Source: Hyphomicrobiales bacterium (GTDB taxonomy: Bacteria > Pseudomonadota > Alphaproteobacteria > Rhizobiales > OSC116). From it: 64,000 nt of DNA. The stretch lies in contig JABSRZ010000005.1 in NCBI GenBank assembly GCA_013214705.1, positions 1 through 64,000 on the forward strand, in the 5' to 3' direction. The notes under the pieces were generated by a model that did no database searches, had not been told where the DNA came from, and saw only the letters and a program-made list of their open reading frames with translations. Made by a program: the position numbers and the translations under genes. Below, piece after piece: positions 3,556-13,284 of this stretch (the stretch's first letter is position 1; each line of letters opens with the position of its first letter).

Positions 3556-6301
<2,746 letters not shown>

Positions 6302-6919
6302 TTAAGACCTCAGCGCCACCCACGTGGCTGTGCCAAGCAAAACCGCGCCGCTGCCACGGCTAAGGCGTTTTTGCATTTTTTGGCTGGTGAATATTTTTGT
6401 GGCTTTGGCGGCAACCCAAACATAGGCGCTACAAACGCTGATGAGCACAGCCGCCACAATGGCCAAAATAACCGAAAATTCGGCGATTGAAAACGCCGTT
6501 ACATCTAATATTTGTGGCATAATGGCGGCATAGAATATAAGTGGTTTGGGGTTGCCAAGCGTGAGCAAAAACCCAGTAGAAATATTAAAAAATGTTGAAT
6601 TTTTAGCCGTCTCTGGTTTGATTTTGAAGGTCTCACCCTTTGAAGTCAGCAGCTGATAAGCCATAAAGGCCAAAAAAGCCGCGCCTGCCCATTTAATCCA
6701 CTGAAATAAATCGCCCATAGTTTCGGCCAGCGCCGCCATGCCAAAAAACACCATAGTGACAAACAGCAAATCGCCAAGGGTGATGCCCAATAAAAAGCCC
6801 GCACCCGCCGCCCAACCGCTACCTAAAGTGCGAGAAATAAGGGTGATAACCCCAGGCCCCGGAATGATGCAGGCCACGGTTAATATGCCGGCAAAAATCA
6901 ATAATGTGTCAAATGTCAT
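6302..6919 (-). CDS. LysE/RhtB-family transporter
   Basis: A 205-residue inner-membrane protein with about six hydrophobic segments. Its N-terminus has the family pattern (TVACIIPGPGVITLISRTLGSG), followed by GFLLGITLGDLLFV and a mid-protein GFLLTLGNPKPLIFYAAIMP. The family exports amino acids or related small metabolites; the substrate cannot be inferred. The ATG overlaps the stop of the upstream DUF2306-like gene by 4 nt (ATGA), indicating translational coupling. It is the last gene of a three-gene operon (8119 to 6302) that appears to be controlled by the divergent TetR protein at 8204. An exporter under a local TetR repressor is a common efflux arrangement. Confidence 0.88.
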   Translation of the reverse strand: MTFDTLLIFAGILTVACIIPGPGVITLISRTLGSGWAAGAGFLLGITLGDLLFVTMVFFGMAALAETMGDLFQWIKWAGAAFLAFMAYQLLTSKGETFKIKPETAKNSTFFNISTGFLLTLGNPKPLIFYAAIMPQILDVTAFSIAEFSVILAIVAAVLISVCSAYVWVAAKATKIFTSQKMQKRLSRGSGAVLLGTATWVALRS

Positions 6920-7578
6920 GAACTGACAATGGCCGCATTTTTGGTGTTTTGCAAATTGTTTTTACGGCGTAAATTGCGGGTTAGTTTTTTTAATATCACA
7001 TATTCGACAATCAATAAATTAGGCACCCACGCCACCCAAGCCACAGTTTGATAAGCTTCCTCCATCGGGACTCCAGATACAATGAATACGCCTAACCACA
7101 ACCGCAATGTTACAAATGCAAAAGTCAGCGCGTATGAACGTATCATCCATTGTTTGTGCAGCTCGACCTCTTTACGGCTGATGTGAAACAAGGCTCTAAA
7201 CGTGGTATATGCCCATAAAACCGCCAACATACCAAAACCAACATGGGTAACAAACCCGCCTTGTGAGACTGTGGACAATAGCAAGCCCGTTGGGGCTGAA
7301 ATGGCTATCGAACTAATGTAAACAATGCCTAACGTACGATGGACTATTTTATGTTGGTTGCGAAATTTTGTCCAAAATTGAGTGAGGCCGGCAAGGGCAG
7401 CAATGATGCCACCGGCAATGTGAATGCGCAACTCCCACGAATAGATGGCATAGACATCTGGCTGGAATGCGCCGGGCATACCGACTCGAAAATATTTTGT
7501 AAAGAAAAACGCGGTGGTAACCACAAATAAGGCCATTAAGACCCAACCTATTGGTTTTAATACATTAGTTATTTTCAT
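6916..7578 (-). CDS. DUF2306-like integral membrane protein
   Basis: A 220-residue protein with about six to seven membrane segments. Conserved-looking His/Arg positions include RIHIAGGIIAALAGLTQFW, a HKIVHRTLG segment, FHISRKEVELHKQWMIRSYA and FVTLRLW. This pattern matches the uncharacterised DUF2306 membrane proteins as I remember them. The several His residues near membrane edges could bind metal or heme, but that is a guess. It overlaps the upstream gene by 14 nt and the downstream LysE-family gene by 4 nt, so the three are translated as a unit. The biochemical function is unknown. Confidence 0.8.
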   Translation of the reverse strand: MKITNVLKPIGWVLMALFVVTTAFFFTKYFRVGMPGAFQPDVYAIYSWELRIHIAGGIIAALAGLTQFWTKFRNQHKIVHRTLGIVYISSIAISAPTGLLLSTVSQGGFVTHVGFGMLAVLWAYTTFRALFHISRKEVELHKQWMIRSYALTFAFVTLRLWLGVFIVSGVPMEEAYQTVAWVAWVPNLLIVEYVILKKLTRNLRRKNNLQNTKNAAIVSS

Positions 7579-8119
7579 GGGTTTGCTTTCTGAATCTTTT
7601 AAACAAAGTGGTGACCAGCAATATAAAAGCGGTCAATTGAGTGATGGATGACACTACAGATTTTGATATGGTGGCAAAATTAGCCGCTTCAACCATTTTG
7701 GCGGTGATGTACTCTGCGTTTTGCAACATATCCGCGATGTAATAATTTTCAGTATAATCGAAAATGGCGGTGAGCAACGGCGCCAAGAGTAAAGTGATAA
7801 TAAGCCCAGTGCGATAGTGCAGGATTTGTGAGAATTTGGCAATAAGCAACCCAAATGCAATGGCAAAACTAGCTGGGTATATGGCATCTAACCACAATTG
7901 TGTATGCAGATAAAAATATTGCCCGTCTTGGCCAAGGGCAGCGATGATGTTTTTGGCTTGCTGCAAATTATAACCCGTTGGGCGGGTGTCGAACATCACC
8001 AAACCATTGGCCAGTGAAGCCAAATGCGGCAGTGACCACAGCATGATGGCGGCAAATATGAGGTTTGAGACAATGAGTGAAATGGCAACCCAAAGCCAAC
8101 TTATTTGATATGATTTCAT
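7565..8119 (-). CDS. Uncharacterised membrane protein, first gene of TetR-linked operon
   Basis: A 184-residue protein I do not recognise. It has about four hydrophobic segments: near residues 8-33, 80-95, 103-120 and 155-172. A soluble loop carries FDTRPTGYN and a LGQDGQYFYL segment between TM1 and TM2, and DAIYPASFAIAFG enters TM2. A third loop holds FDYTENYYIADML. The ATG at 8119 lies about 35 nt downstream of a consensus -10 (8154-8159). The 3' end overlaps the DUF2306-like gene by 14 nt. As the promoter-proximal gene of a TetR-controlled operon it may be part of a membrane transport or stress-response unit; no function is assigned. Confidence 0.8.
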   Translation of the reverse strand: MKSYQISWLWVAISLIVSNLIFAAIMLWSLPHLASLANGLVMFDTRPTGYNLQQAKNIIAALGQDGQYFYLHTQLWLDAIYPASFAIAFGLLIAKFSQILHYRTGLIITLLLAPLLTAIFDYTENYYIADMLQNAEYITAKMVEAANFATISKSVVSSITQLTAFILLVTTLFKRFRKQTHENN

Positions 8120-8131
8120 TTGAATACCTAT

Positions 8132-8182
8132 TTTACAGTGTAAAGTTTGAACTTATATAAGGCTTAATGTTGACACTGTCAA
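8132..8182. promoter_or_regulatory. Divergent promoters with two TetR-type operators
   Basis: Two perfect 6-1-6 palindromes of one consensus, TTTACA-g-TGTAAA (8132-8144) and TTGACA-c-TGTCAA (8170-8182), flank a shared palindromic -10 TATATA (8154-8159). For the minus operon, TTGACA (8182-8177) is 17 nt from TATATA, a textbook sigma70 promoter. For tetR, TTTACA (8132-8137) is 16 nt from the same TATATA. Each operator therefore covers one -35 element. Inference: the TetR protein represses both directions by binding TTnACAnTGTnAA. Confidence 0.75.
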
Positions 8183-8203
8183 GTGAGCAGAATATACATA
8201 GCT

Positions 8204-8812
8204 ATGAAAAAACAAATATCGGCAAAAAAAAATGCCCATCACCATGGTGATTTGCGCAACGCGTTGATATCCGCAGGGATAGAATTGCTCAATGAAGCGG
8301 GTGTCGAGGGGTTAACCTTACGCAAATGCGCCGCCCGTGCGGGGGTTTCTCACGCGGCGCCGGCTCACCATTTTAGGGGCCTAAAAGGCCTGATAACCGC
8401 CATTGTAACGCGGGGGTATAAGCTGTTTGGCGCAGAAATGAACCAGTATATAGCGGCAGCAGAGCCTGACCCAAAATCGCGCTTACGCGGTTGCTGCAAA
8501 GGTTATGTGCAGTTTTCACGCAGCCATAAAGCGCTGGCGAGCATTATTTTTAACAAAGCCAACTGTTTTGAAGATGAGCCAGAATGGCAGGAAGCTGCAG
8601 ACGCGGCTTACCAAGTATTAGTGGACATTTGCGCGCCATTTAAACACCGGCATGACCGCCCCGAACTAACTGAAATTGCCGTGTGGACGATGCTAGAAGG
8701 CTATGTAAATTTTGAACGCAACGGCGTGATAAACGACGGCTACAGACACAGCACCCAACTACATATCGACCTATTAATAGATATGCTGTGCCTCGAAGTT
8801 GCCAGTGACTAA
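8204..8812 (+). CDS. TetR-family transcriptional regulator
   Basis: From ATG 8204 the protein has 202 residues; an upstream GTG at 8183 would add seven but overlaps the end of an operator palindrome. The N-terminal helix-turn-helix reads AAGVEGLTLRKCAARAGVSH-like (LNEAGVEGLTLRKCAARAGV then SHAAPAHHF), a TetR DNA-binding domain with the family's conserved Gly and His/Phe positions. The C-terminal ligand-binding domain contains two Cys (GCCKGY) and ends with a typical helical pair. It is divergent from the three-gene membrane operon, and two matching palindromes in the gap fit autoregulation plus control of that operon. The ligand is unknown. Confidence 0.9.
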   Translation: MKKQISAKKNAHHHGDLRNALISAGIELLNEAGVEGLTLRKCAARAGVSHAAPAHHFRGLKGLITAIVTRGYKLFGAEMNQYIAAAEPDPKSRLRGCCKGYVQFSRSHKALASIIFNKANCFEDEPEWQEAADAAYQVLVDICAPFKHRHDRPELTEIAVWTMLEGYVNFERNGVINDGYRHSTQLHIDLLIDMLCLEVASD

Positions 8813-8815
8813 ATT

Positions 8816-9289
8816 TCAGCTGGCACCAAGAATGCCTGCCATTCGGTGAGTGCGAAAACAGGCGTTCGAAGCCGCTGCCGTCTAACGCGCGGAGGCTAGA
8901 GAGCGCAGCGAACGCACGCAAGTGTCAACAGTGAGGCTTAAGCCGAACGTATAAATGCAGACTTCCAGAGCTCAGGCAGGAGCGCTACCCAAGAGTTTGC
9001 TGAAAAGCTGTGCTGTGGAAAGTTTTCGCAGGAGTTTCGGCCGTCGAACCAGCATTTGATCTTGCTAAGACATAGAAAGTTAGCGCTCCTGCCTGAGCTC
9101 TGGAAGTCTGCATTTATACGTTCTTTCGGCTTCGCCTCATTCACTGTTGGCACTTGCGTGCGAATCCACACACTGGCGTGTGCGTCTTCTAGCCTCCGCG
9201 CGTTAGACGGCAGCGGCTTCGAACGGCCGCTTTCGCACTCACTGAAAATCACGTTGCGTGGATGCGGGGGGCAGACGGAAACTCAGAAC
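8816..9289. repeat. Inverted-pair dispersed repeat (module B) between tetR and recF
   Basis: The whole gap between the converging tetR and recF genes is repeat. Two arms of about 140-160 bp face each other: 8846-8986 and 9082-9242. The inner 42 nt are an exact inverted repeat (8945-8986 with 9082-9123), beginning GAACGTATAAATGCAGACTT and ending CAGGAGCGCT. Both arms share GCGCGGAGGCTAG. The right end carries GGCAGACGGAAACTCAG (9270-9286), a motif that also bounds the copies near 52.6 and 57.7 kb. Short open frames here are repeat-derived and not annotated as genes. Confidence 0.9.
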
Positions 9290-9292
9290 CGG

Positions 9293-10483
9293 TCAGCTAA
9301 CCACCGCGCCGTCATTAATCTCAAACATTGTGCTTGTGGCGTCGATGGCGGCGAACAGGCTGCGGTCGGTGCCGGTCATAAACAATTGGGCGTTCAAATC
9401 GCCCAACTCTTCAAACAATGCGGCGCGGCGGCTGGCATCTAAATGGGCGGTTATTTCATCGAGCAGCATGATCAGCACCGCATCGCCTGACACCTGATCG
9501 ACCAATTTTGCATGGGCCAATAGCAGTGCGATTAGCAAGGCCTTTTGTTCGCCGGTCGAGCATTTCTTGGCCTCGATATTTTTGCTGCCATGCCAAGCCA
9601 AAAGGTCAGATTTATGCGGCCCAAATTGGGTGCGTCCGGTCTGTTGATCGAACGGGCGGTTATGTTTGAGCTTCTGCAGGTAAATGTCTTCGACTTCGAT
9701 GGCGGGTTTTTCGCCAATCAATTGCTCCAAATCGCCTTGCATGGCGATGCGCGCAAACGGAAATGCGCTTTCTGAACCGGCTTCTAACAAGGCGCTTAAA
9801 TGCAGCGCAACTTCGCGCCGGGCGGCGGCAATGGCCACGGCTTGTTCGGCCATTTGGCCTTCTATGCCAGACAACCAAACGTCATCTAATATATTTTTTT
9901 CGAGCAATTTATTGCGCTCACGCATGGCTTTTTCGAACCGGCTAGTGCGGGCATTATGGCCGGGGTCAAACCCGGTGACAAACCGGTCAAAAAATTTACG
10001 CCGCTCGGCTGCTGGGCCGGTAAATAATCTATCGAGCGAAGGGGTTAGCCAGATGGCGCGGACATAATCGCCTAAAATGGTGCTATTTTTGTGGCTTTCG
10101 CCATCGATGCGAATTTCCTTGCTATATTTAACTGTGCCGCTTAAATCATCGGCCAAATTAGGCAAAATAGCCGAATTAGACAAGCTTGGCCGCGCGCCGA
10201 CGCCAATTTTAACCGCGCCAAATTCGGTTTGAATTTGCGAAAAAATGCTAAAACCACTGCTATCGCCACTGCCATCTGCTGCCAAACTCTGGGCATTCAC
10301 CACGTCTGTCAGGCCCGCCCGGCGCAAGCCACGGCCAGAGGATAGATAGGAAAGCGCCTCTAAAATATTGGTTTTACCACTGCCATTGGCACCATAAAAA
10401 ATGGTGGCTTTGCTTGAGAATTGCAAACCAAGTTGGCTATAATTGCGAAAATTCTCTAACCGAAGATCGGAAATATAGGGAAT
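9293..10483 (-). CDS. recF: DNA replication and repair protein RecF, probable ATT start
   Basis: SMC-like ATPase that loads RecA at gaps together with RecO/RecR. Walker A is GANGSGKT, followed by LEALSYLSSGRGLRRA; the ABC-type signature (CSTGEQKALLIALLLAHA) and Walker B (MLLDEITAHLD) lie in the C-terminal third. The conserved family N-terminus (ISDLRLENFRNYSQL) is encoded upstream of the first canonical start in frame, a TTG at 10426 that would remove it. An in-frame TAG lies just upstream (10495-10493), leaving ATT at 10483 (or ATC at 10486) as start. GGAG ends 6 nt before the ATT, and dnaN ends 20 nt upstream. I therefore annotate 396 residues from ATT. Confidence 0.9.
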   Translation of the reverse strand: MPYISDLRLENFRNYSQLGLQFSSKATIFYGANGSGKTNILEALSYLSSGRGLRRAGLTDVVNAQSLAADGSGDSSGFSIFSQIQTEFGAVKIGVGARPSLSNSAILPNLADDLSGTVKYSKEIRIDGESHKNSTILGDYVRAIWLTPSLDRLFTGPAAERRKFFDRFVTGFDPGHNARTSRFEKAMRERNKLLEKNILDDVWLSGIEGQMAEQAVAIAAARREVALHLSALLEAGSESAFPFARIAMQGDLEQLIGEKPAIEVEDIYLQKLKHNRPFDQQTGRTQFGPHKSDLLAWHGSKNIEAKKCSTGEQKALLIALLLAHAKLVDQVSGDAVLIMLLDEITAHLDASRRAALFEELGDLNAQLFMTGTDRSLFAAIDATSTMFEINDGAVVS

Positions 10484-10502
10484 GATAAGCTCCTATAATC
10501 GC

Positions 10503-11615
10503 TTAAACTCGCATTGGCATCAGCACATAAATTGTGCCGACATCACCTTGGTCTTTAACCAATACCGGGTCGATGCTTTCGGCGAATAAAAATTCGACCT
10601 CATCACCCTCGAGTTGGTTCAAAACATCGAGCATATATTTGGCGTTAAAGCCAATGTCTAATTCCACACTGTCATACTCGACCAATAATTCTTCTTCGGC
10701 ATGGCCGCTTTCGGGATTATTCACTTCTAATGTCAATACGCCCTTTTTCAGCGCCAACTTAATCGCCCGGCCGCGGTCATTGGCCACGGTTGATACCCGG
10801 TCGACCGCTTTGGTCAATGCGCGGGATTCGACCTTGAGTGCATTTTGGTTATTGTCAGGTATCACCCGGTTATAATCGGGGTAATTGCCATCGATTAACT
10901 TCGATGTGACCACGGATTGGCCAATGCGAAACTCTATTTTGCTGTCTGAAAGTGAAATGGCCACGCTGTCATCGCCATTATCCAGCAATTTATGCAATTC
11001 GCCAACCGTTTTGCGCGGTATAATGATGCCCGGCATGTTGGCCGCGCCGTCTGGCATATCAATTTCGACTTTGGCCAACCTGTGCCCATCGGTGGCAACG
11101 GCGCATAATTTAGCCGCATCATCTTGGCTGGTGTGGAAATATATGCCGTTCAAATAATAACGGGTTTCTTCGGTGCTAATGGCAAACCGGGTTTTCTCGA
11201 TCATCCGCCGCAGCACAGCCACATCTAAGGTGAAATTATGGCTCATCTCACCGCTAGAAAGGTTGGGAAAATCATCTGCCGGTAGTGCTTGTAGGGTGAA
11301 TTGTGAGCGGCCAGCGCGCACATCAATGCGGGTATCTTCAGTTTTTTCGATCGATATCTGGGTGCCATCGGGCAATTTACGCACAATGTCATACAGCAGA
11401 TGCGCCGGTGCGGTGATGCTGCCAGCTTGGTCGACAATCGCCGGGGCGCTCTCAACTATGCTAATGTCTAAATCTGTCGCGGTAAATTTTACACTTTCGC
11501 CCGCTGCGGTAATGAGAATGTTGGATAACACCGGGATGGTGTTGCGCCTCTCGACAACGCCTTGAACATGATTGAGCGATTTAAGCAATGTTTCGCGCTC
11601 TATTGTCACTTTCAT
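10503..11615 (-). CDS. dnaN: DNA polymerase III subunit beta (sliding clamp)
   Basis: The beta clamp, a ring dimer that tethers polymerase III and binds many clamp-interacting proteins. From ATG 11615 it is 370 residues (MKVTIERETLLKSLNHVQ), the usual size; an in-frame start 33 nt upstream would add a non-family extension. The three repeated clamp domains are recognisable (NTIPVLSNILI near residue 25; RKTVGELHKLL; FNAKYMLDVLNQLEGDEVEF). It ends VGTIYVLMPMRV, a typical C-terminus. It sits between dnaA and recF on the minus strand, and a terminator-like hairpin separates it from dnaA, so it probably has its own promoter in 11616-11707. recF follows with a 20-nt gap. Confidence 0.98.
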   Translation of the reverse strand: MKVTIERETLLKSLNHVQGVVERRNTIPVLSNILITAAGESVKFTATDLDISIVESAPAIVDQAGSITAPAHLLYDIVRKLPDGTQISIEKTEDTRIDVRAGRSQFTLQALPADDFPNLSSGEMSHNFTLDVAVLRRMIEKTRFAISTEETRYYLNGIYFHTSQDDAAKLCAVATDGHRLAKVEIDMPDGAANMPGIIIPRKTVGELHKLLDNGDDSVAISLSDSKIEFRIGQSVVTSKLIDGNYPDYNRVIPDNNQNALKVESRALTKAVDRVSTVANDRGRAIKLALKKGVLTLEVNNPESGHAEEELLVEYDSVELDIGFNAKYMLDVLNQLEGDEVEFLFAESIDPVLVKDQGDVGTIYVLMPMRV

Positions 11616-11707
11616 TTTGAATATCCCACTCTCGGTTTGACCTATCAAGTTTTAGATCAGAATCAGTTGTAAGCCCTAGAATATAACAGTTTTCCCATAG
11701 GTCAAAC

Positions 11708-11739
11708 AAAAAGCACCACACAATATCGGTGATGCTTTT
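11708..11739 (-). terminator. Terminator downstream of dnaA
   Basis: On the minus strand, AAAAGCATCAC and GTGGTGCTTTT pair over 11 bp (one G-T wobble) around a 9-nt loop and run into TTTTTGTTTG. It lies about 50 nt after the dnaA stop and before dnaN. It should reduce read-through from dnaA into dnaN. Confidence 0.65.
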
Positions 11740-11787
11740 AAAATGTGTATATATGCCTTTGTTGGCAGCTTAACGATGGTTGGCAGA

Positions 11788-13284
11788 TTAACGATGCAAA
11801 TCGCCAGTTTCAATTTCGCGTTTTAGCCGGGTCACTTCTTCGGCCAAAATAGGGTCTTTTTTCAATAAATCATCTATTTTGCGAACCGCGTGCAGCACGG
11901 TTGTATGGTCGCGGCCACCAAAACGCCGGCCAATTTCGGGCAAGCTACGTGAGGTCAGCATTTTGGCCAAATACATGCCAATTTGGCGGGGCCGCACAAT
12001 AGAACGATGGCGGCGGGCAGAGAATAGATCGGCCTTAGACACCTGATAAAATTCTGAAACGGATTTGATGATGTCGTGCACACGAATGATGCGGTTTTCC
12101 TCGACACTCACTTGGTTGCGCAACGCACTGCGTGCCATATCCAAAGTGATGACGCCATTTTGAGCCCGCGACAATACACTCACCAAGCCGCCCTCTAACC
12201 CACGCGCGCAGCGCGAGGCGTTTTCGGCAATATATTGCAACACATCAGCAGGCACAGCCAGTGTGGGGTTAACCCGTTGGGCTTCGGCCACTTTGGCTTT
12301 CAATATCCTCACCCGCAATTCAAAATCATTGGGGCAAATGTCTATAACCAAACCACCAGAAAGCCGTGAGCGCATGCGGTCATTAAGGCAACTTAATTGA
12401 ATGGGCGATTGATCGGCCGCCAGCACAACTTGCTTGCCAGCTTCGACCAAGCTGGTGAAAGTGTGGTCAAACTCTTCTTGCACTTTTTCGCCTTGCAGAA
12501 ATTGCAAATCGTCAATGAGCAACAAATCGACTGACCGAATTTTTTCTTTAAATGACAGTGTGTCGCGGTTTTTAAGCGCGTTGACAAATTGCACAATAAA
12601 TTCTTCAGCGGTTAAATAGAGCATTTTGCGCTCAGGATATTTAACCATAATTTGATGACGCACCGCATTGAGCAAATGGGTTTTGCCTAAACCTGGCTCG
12701 CCATAAATAAACAACGGGCGATAGCCACCAAATTCATTGGGCATGCCATCGGCGACGCGTTTTGCAGCTTGAAAAGCCAAAGCGTTGCTATCGCCGACCA
12801 CAAAGGTATCAAATGATTGACGCGGGTCGACATGGCGACCACGAGCGCGGCCATGGCCGCCCATTTCGCCGGGACGGTTGCCGGCTGCCATTGGGTTGGC
12901 ATGGCCGAAATTCTTTAAGCCGTTATGTTTGCCTGACCAATCATTGGGGGCAGATTTTTCTAACGGGTTATTGGCGTTGTTAAGTTGTAAATTGGCGTTC
13001 GGGCTTGGCGCTTGGCGCGTAGAACAAGTGCGCACCAAAATATCGACCCGCGCCAAAGTGCTAATTTCATTTTTCCAACCGGCCAACAAATTGTCACGAT
13101 AATGCGACTGAATCCACGAGCGTAAAAACCGTGTGGGCACGGAAACCGTTAAATTAGCGCCGTCAAAATTTTCGGGCATCATGCGGGTAAACCAGCTTGA
13201 ATATACATCTTCGCCCAATTCAGCACGCAATTTTTTACGCACAATTTCCCATTTGCTGTCTAATTCGACGACTGCTGCTTCCAT
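11788..13284 (-). CDS. dnaA: Chromosomal replication initiator protein DnaA
   Basis: AAA+ initiator that binds DnaA boxes and opens the origin. 498 residues. Domain I is residues 1-90 (WEIVRKKLRAELGEDVYSSW). A long Asn/Gly-rich domain II follows (about 90-155). The AAA+ core has Walker A GEPGLGKT (195-202) and Walker B LLLIDDLQ (254-261). Domain IV carries the DnaA signature (RQIGMYLAKMLTSRSLPEIG, GGRDHTTVLHA). The ATG at 13284 is preceded by AGGAACAGG. Upstream is the rhodanese gene and a tandem duplication of its 3' end; downstream is a terminator. I found no cluster of DnaA boxes beside the gene. Confidence 0.99.
   Translation of the reverse strand: MEAAVVELDSKWEIVRKKLRAELGEDVYSSWFTRMMPENFDGANLTVSVPTRFLRSWIQSHYRDNLLAGWKNEISTLARVDILVRTCSTRQAPSPNANLQLNNANNPLEKSAPNDWSGKHNGLKNFGHANPMAAGNRPGEMGGHGRARGRHVDPRQSFDTFVVGDSNALAFQAAKRVADGMPNEFGGYRPLFIYGEPGLGKTHLLNAVRHQIMVKYPERKMLYLTAEEFIVQFVNALKNRDTLSFKEKIRSVDLLLIDDLQFLQGEKVQEEFDHTFTSLVEAGKQVVLAADQSPIQLSCLNDRMRSRLSGGLVIDICPNDFELRVRILKAKVAEAQRVNPTLAVPADVLQYIAENASRCARGLEGGLVSVLSRAQNGVITLDMARSALRNQVSVEENRIIRVHDIIKSVSEFYQVSKADLFSARRHRSIVRPRQIGMYLAKMLTSRSLPEIGRRFGGRDHTTVLHAVRKIDDLLKKDPILAEEVTRLKREIETGDLHR

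Follow-up and report, generated by a model that had tools for sequence, protein, structure and literature searches.

What controls two transcription units that face away from each other across a short intergenic region? In the window analysed here (the whole 64,000-nucleotide stretch of Hyphomicrobiales DNA), two perfect 13-bp palindromes lie between a plus-strand tetR gene, which begins with the ATG at 8204, and a minus-strand operon whose first ATG is at 8119, and the locus raises the question of which protein reads them and which promoters they govern. A first-pass annotation had described the two as perfect palindromes of one consensus, TTNACANTGTNAA, and this description holds: they are the only matches to that motif in the 64-kb window. 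The mean number of matches in 100 dinucleotide shuffles of the window was 0.08, and two matches were reached in two of the 100.

Gene organization of the locus

The product of the plus-strand gene has a TetR_N domain (PF00440), which scored 28.8 bits against a cut-off of 24, and a TetR_C_33 domain (PF13305), which scored 39.3 bits against a curated cut-off of 26.8. It is proposed to be an autorepressor. The first gene of the minus-strand operon encodes a predicted membrane protein for which a Pfam profile search returned no match. This gene is overlapped by 14 bp by the ORF for a DUF2306 membrane protein, which in turn is overlapped by 4 bp by the ORF for a LysE-type transporter, and the LysE-type gene is probably in one operon with the DUF2306 gene. 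Coordinates of the genes and predicted control elements are collected in Table 1.

Table 1. Genes, predicted operators and predicted promoter elements of the tetR locus (window coordinates)
Feature	Position	Strand	Basis
Regulator gene, TetR_N + TetR_C_33, 202 aa	8204..8812	+	Pfam E 1.1e-6 and 1e-9
Gene 1 of the minus operon (predicted membrane protein, 184 aa)	7565..8119	-	Same gene in comparison genome G002
DUF2306 membrane protein	6916..7578	-	Pfam PF10067, E 5.7e-40
LysE-type transporter	6302..6919	-	Pfam PF01810, E 7.2e-27
Proximal operator (predicted), TTGACACTGTCAA	8170..8182	.	Sequence; relatives retain TTGACRCTGTCAA, with its distance to tetR fixed
Distal operator (predicted), TTTACAGTGTAAA	8132..8144	.	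Sequence; most relatives have another site 21-43 bp away from the proximal one
-35 TTGACA, tetR (predicted, corrected assignment)	8170..8175	+	-10 signal after the proximal operator in relatives
-10 TATACA, tetR (predicted); expected start 8204/8205 = ATG	8193..8198	+	Sequence; distance to ATG in relatives
-35 TTGACA, minus operon (predicted)	8177..8182	-	17-bp spacing to the -10 in 4/4 genus members
-10 TATATA, minus operon (predicted); expected start near 8147	8154..8159	-	TATAYA retained behind a 17-bp spacer in four genus members

The regulator and the operon are placed between gyrB-like and recF-like genes, within a dnaA-dnaN-recF-gyrB-like cluster at 3556-13284 whose gene names were assigned by reading translations. 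A recF-like sequence also adjoins the regulator in two comparison genomes (G003 and G005). Between tetR and recF, at 8842-9246, there are nested inverted repeats with 43-nt arms that are 100% complementary and 66-nt arms that are 89% complementary. A 15-base core of this repeat occurs in 43 copies in the genome (at most one mismatch), compared with none for the reversed control, and this copy number suggests that the repeat is a dispersed mobile element.

Conservation of the palindromes beside related regulators

Orthologues of the regulator were found in four relatives at 80, 69, 80 and 46% identity, and a palindrome pair is present at the same place in all four. A pattern fixed from these four loci, TTKACRNYGTMAA, was then applied to 79 loci drawn from a separate protein search, at least two of which (L051 and L074) are genomes already in the comparison. 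Within 220 bp upstream of the regulator match, at least one exact site occurs in 75 of the 79 loci and at least two in 58. The remainder of the same loci contains only four sites in 454,508 bases, a background of 0.002 per 220 bp. The search favoured regulators with the peptides SHAAPAHH or LTLRKCAA, and the result therefore applies to the near subfamily. At 70% protein identity, the regulators of the 67 loci on which the geometry was measured form 47 groups, so the conservation does not come from one clone. The C and G flanking the site are also conserved among relatives (85% and 92%, respectively). In a class-wide sample, distant relatives with a changed helix (LRKVAA..RVSHAAPAHHF) mostly have no sites, as expected if the regulator reads them.

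In most relatives the regulator faces a DUF2306 gene, and DUF2306 accounts for 52 of the 58 facing or operon ORFs that were scanned, a count that is not an unbiased rate since ORFs that looked misframed were left out before the scan. Both sequence and conservation place palindromic sites over predicted promoter elements between the regulator and its divergent target. The pair conserved beside orthologues lends support to the proposal, made in the first-pass annotation, that the palindromes predict the binding site of this regulator, and we consider them almost certainly to be the operators of the TetR_C_33 product of the gene at 8204-8812.

In some relatives from the Rhodobacteraceae (L068, L075, L082, L087, L089 and L099), a third operator is present 14 bp away from the distal one. 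The same palindromes, or similar ones, also occur with more distant TetR relatives whose facing genes are of other kinds, including one for an ABA4-like protein (L129) and one for an RPE65-type carotenoid oxygenase (L126, with L029 alike), which suggests that the operator design may serve targets besides DUF2306. In another set of TetR relatives (L024, L031, L032, L034, L036, L037 and L041), an ATGTAA...TTACAT inverted repeat lies at, or overlaps, the start of the regulator gene. This repeat is likely a different operator used by that TetR group.

Occurrence of the motif across the genome

The first-pass annotation had also suggested a genome search for the site, and its outcome depends on how the motif is written. 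The loose motif is not enriched genome-wide, with 14 sites compared with 18 in the reversed control, and it was dropped as a definition of a regulon. The other matches to the loose motif lie within coding regions or have centres that are rare in the family. With the refined motif, TTKACRSTGTMAAG, the 3.5-Mb genome yields only four sites (one in the control), namely the two sites described here and a pair on another contig, and unlike the loose motif it can define a regulon.

The pair on the other contig (C14, locus L045) consists of TTGACACTGTAAA at 852-864 and TTTACAGTGTCAA at 889-901, 37 bp apart, with a partial third site between them. A phage-integrase fragment and an alpha/beta hydrolase gene are nearby, and no close TetR gene was found beside the pair. 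These sites may be remnants, or they may serve as a target in trans.

Promoters on either side of the proximal operator

Four promoter readings were compared, in which a -10 element lies 16-18 bp after each operator on each strand. A simple consensus promoter scan lists none of the candidates, because it requires T at the last -10 position and the predicted -10 elements end in A.

On the minus strand, the first-pass annotation had assigned the operon to TTGACA (8182-8177) and TATATA (8159-8154) separated by 17 bp. This spacing is correct and is retained in the four genus members examined: the two operators are 38, 37, 35 and 34 bp apart in them, yet the distance from the proximal minus-strand TTGACA to TATAYA is exactly 17 bp in all of them. 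The minus-strand -10 signal after the proximal operator is also strong in 18 other long-spaced relatives (z 5.5, a descriptive value, as are all promoter z values given here, because the shuffles leave relatedness in place). A predicted TTGACA-17-TATATA promoter for the operon is thereby supported. The distal operator is predicted to fall at about +4 to +16 of the transcript. In relatives with operators 25 bp apart, the analysis assigned no promoter to the facing gene.

On the plus strand, the same palindrome contains a second TTGACA, which is followed after 17 bp by TATACA, 5 bp ahead of the tetR ATG. The first-pass annotation overlooked this arrangement. Among relatives, the plus-strand -10 signal after the proximal operator reaches z 10.5 at spacers of 16-17 bp in 47 short-spaced loci and z 4.1 at spacers of 16-18 bp in 18 long-spaced loci. 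Counted from the first base of the proximal operator, the tetR ATG comes at 34-37 nt in 54 of 66 relatives and at offset 34 in the window, and a Shine-Dalgarno-like motif precedes tetR in only three of the 66 (63 have none). A -35 element at offset 0 and a -10 element at offset 22-23 would put the transcription start at offset 34-35, which coincides with the ATG, and such a leaderless start would account for the conserved distance between the ATG and the operator. We infer that tetR is transcribed from TTGACA-17-TATACA as a leaderless mRNA starting at its ATG. Leaderless mRNAs are reportedly not uncommon in alphaproteobacteria (PMC7566282).

We also asked whether the two operators are helically phased. 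Their spacings group around 25 and 37 bp, but periods of 11-15 bp fit as well as 10.5 bp, and therefore we make no claim of phasing.

Alternative readings of the intergenic region

The first-pass annotation had instead described a bidirectional promoter in which a symmetrical -10 element, TATATA at 8154-8159, is shared by both strands, with tetR driven from TTTACA (8132-8137) at a spacing of 16 bp, the operon driven from TTGACA at 8182 at a spacing of 17 bp, and each operator covering one -35 element. We consider this layout improbable. Its arithmetic is right in the window, where both spacings fit and TATATA is indeed symmetrical, and bidirectional promoters with a shared -10 element, whose two starts are separated by about 18 bp, are common in E. 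coli and include that of the TetR-family acrR and acrA (PMC12825309). In one comparison genome (G005) a TATA-like element also lies 17 bp after the distal operator. However, it is the distance from the TATA element to the proximal operator that is conserved, not that to the distal one, so that the proposed tetR spacer drifts from 16 to 15, 13 and 12 bp in the four genus members and is out of range in two of them; the plus-strand -35 spacing is therefore not conserved, and the tetR part of the layout is not supported. A plus-strand -10 signal after the distal operator is absent from the 47 short-spaced relatives (z 0.2) and weak in the 18 long-spaced ones (z 2.4), and the layout leaves the conserved distance between the ATG and the proximal operator unexplained. 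Within the four genus members alone, the -10 score does not separate three of the promoter readings (z 1.9, 1.5 and 1.7), and the choice therefore rests on the drifting spacer and on the wider set of relatives. The proximal operator would then cover both -35 elements, and the distal one would fall in the start of the minus-strand transcript, rather than each covering one.

A variant of the preferred reading, in which both rightward promoters are used, with a main leaderless start at 8204 and a minor upstream start from the shared TATATA, is unlikely, though it deserves more weight than a shared -10 element as the sole source of tetR transcripts. The sequence permits it, and in Zymomonas leaderless genes with a second, leadered start occur (PMC7566282), but the position of the upstream promoter is not conserved even within the genus. 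We give very little credence to the possibility that the palindromes are sites of a different regulator or have arisen by chance. The missing genome-wide enrichment of the loose motif is what such an explanation would have in its favour; it is opposed by the pairing of the sites with the regulator gene in dozens of divergent genomes and by their absence in relatives with the changed helix.

Proposed mode of regulation

We hypothesize that the TetR_C_33 protein binds each 13-bp palindrome as a dimer, and that the proximal palindrome also supplies the -35 elements of two back-to-back sigma-70 promoters. The leftward promoter, TTGACA-17-TATATA, would serve the operon for the membrane protein, DUF2306 and LysE-type proteins, and the rightward one, TTGACA-17-TATACA, would serve leaderless tetR. 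Repressor on the proximal palindrome would block both -35 elements at once, such that its own gene and the operon are repressed together, and the distal operator, within the first 16 nt of the operon transcript, would block the operon a second time. Expression of both genes would be low in the absence of ligand and would be released by an inducer, which may be a small hydrophobic compound that the DUF2306 membrane protein handles. This model as a whole, with dimers on both palindromes, both -35 elements in the proximal one, leaderless tetR and joint repression, appears to us quite probable. It takes operator identity, pairing and fixed geometry from comparison, and infers binding, repression, start sites, ligand and operon transcription.

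The two -35 elements are one base apart and two polymerases are not expected to bind simultaneously, so some competition between the overlapping promoters is possible when both are derepressed. For bidirectional promoters of E. coli, such competition was found to have an effect only where transcription in one direction is strong (PMC12825309). To describe the locus as a mutual-exclusion switch is to claim more than the evidence gives. A recognisable regulator is encoded on one side only, which argues for negative autoregulation. The circuit would repress both genes together; it is of an ordinary kind, with a well conserved design.

Relation to known systems and significance

The locus appears to be of a familiar type, a TetR-family autorepressor that faces its target. 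In Tn10, two palindromic operators likewise lie between the divergent repressor and membrane-protein genes, tetR and tetA, but operator sequence, domain family and target differ. The domain make-up is the same as in other TetR_N plus TetR_C_33 regulators, and the solved structure closest to it in sequence is 3on2, a probable transcriptional regulator. In the acrR/acrA region of E. coli, too, overlapping divergent promoters bring the gene for a TetR-family repressor and the membrane-system operon facing it under the control of that repressor (PMC12825309). That region differs in that the -10 element is shared there, whereas here the evidence favours two adjacent -35 elements in one palindromic operator and a leaderless repressor gene. 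In the literature searched, outside of which most subscription journals lie, no paper gives TTGACACTGTCAA with a TetR protein, or TTGACAGTGTCAA or TTGACACTGTAAA, as a bacterial operator.

A first functional assignment of DUF2306, in the words of its authors, was recently made in fungal natural-product biosynthesis, where it concerns an epoxidation step (PMC12895699); this assignment does not establish the function of the bacterial proteins. We lean, if only slightly, towards a more general form of the model, in which TTGACANTGTCAA would be both the operator and the -35 element of two back-to-back promoters, with the leaderless repressor gene at a fixed distance, and in which competition between the repressor and two polymerases would be conserved in the DUF2306-TetR pair across Alphaproteobacteria and a few Gammaproteobacteria. 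The comparison provides a precise and testable operator motif and predicted start site for a widespread regulator family that had no binding site in the literature searched, and it ties this family to DUF2306 membrane proteins.
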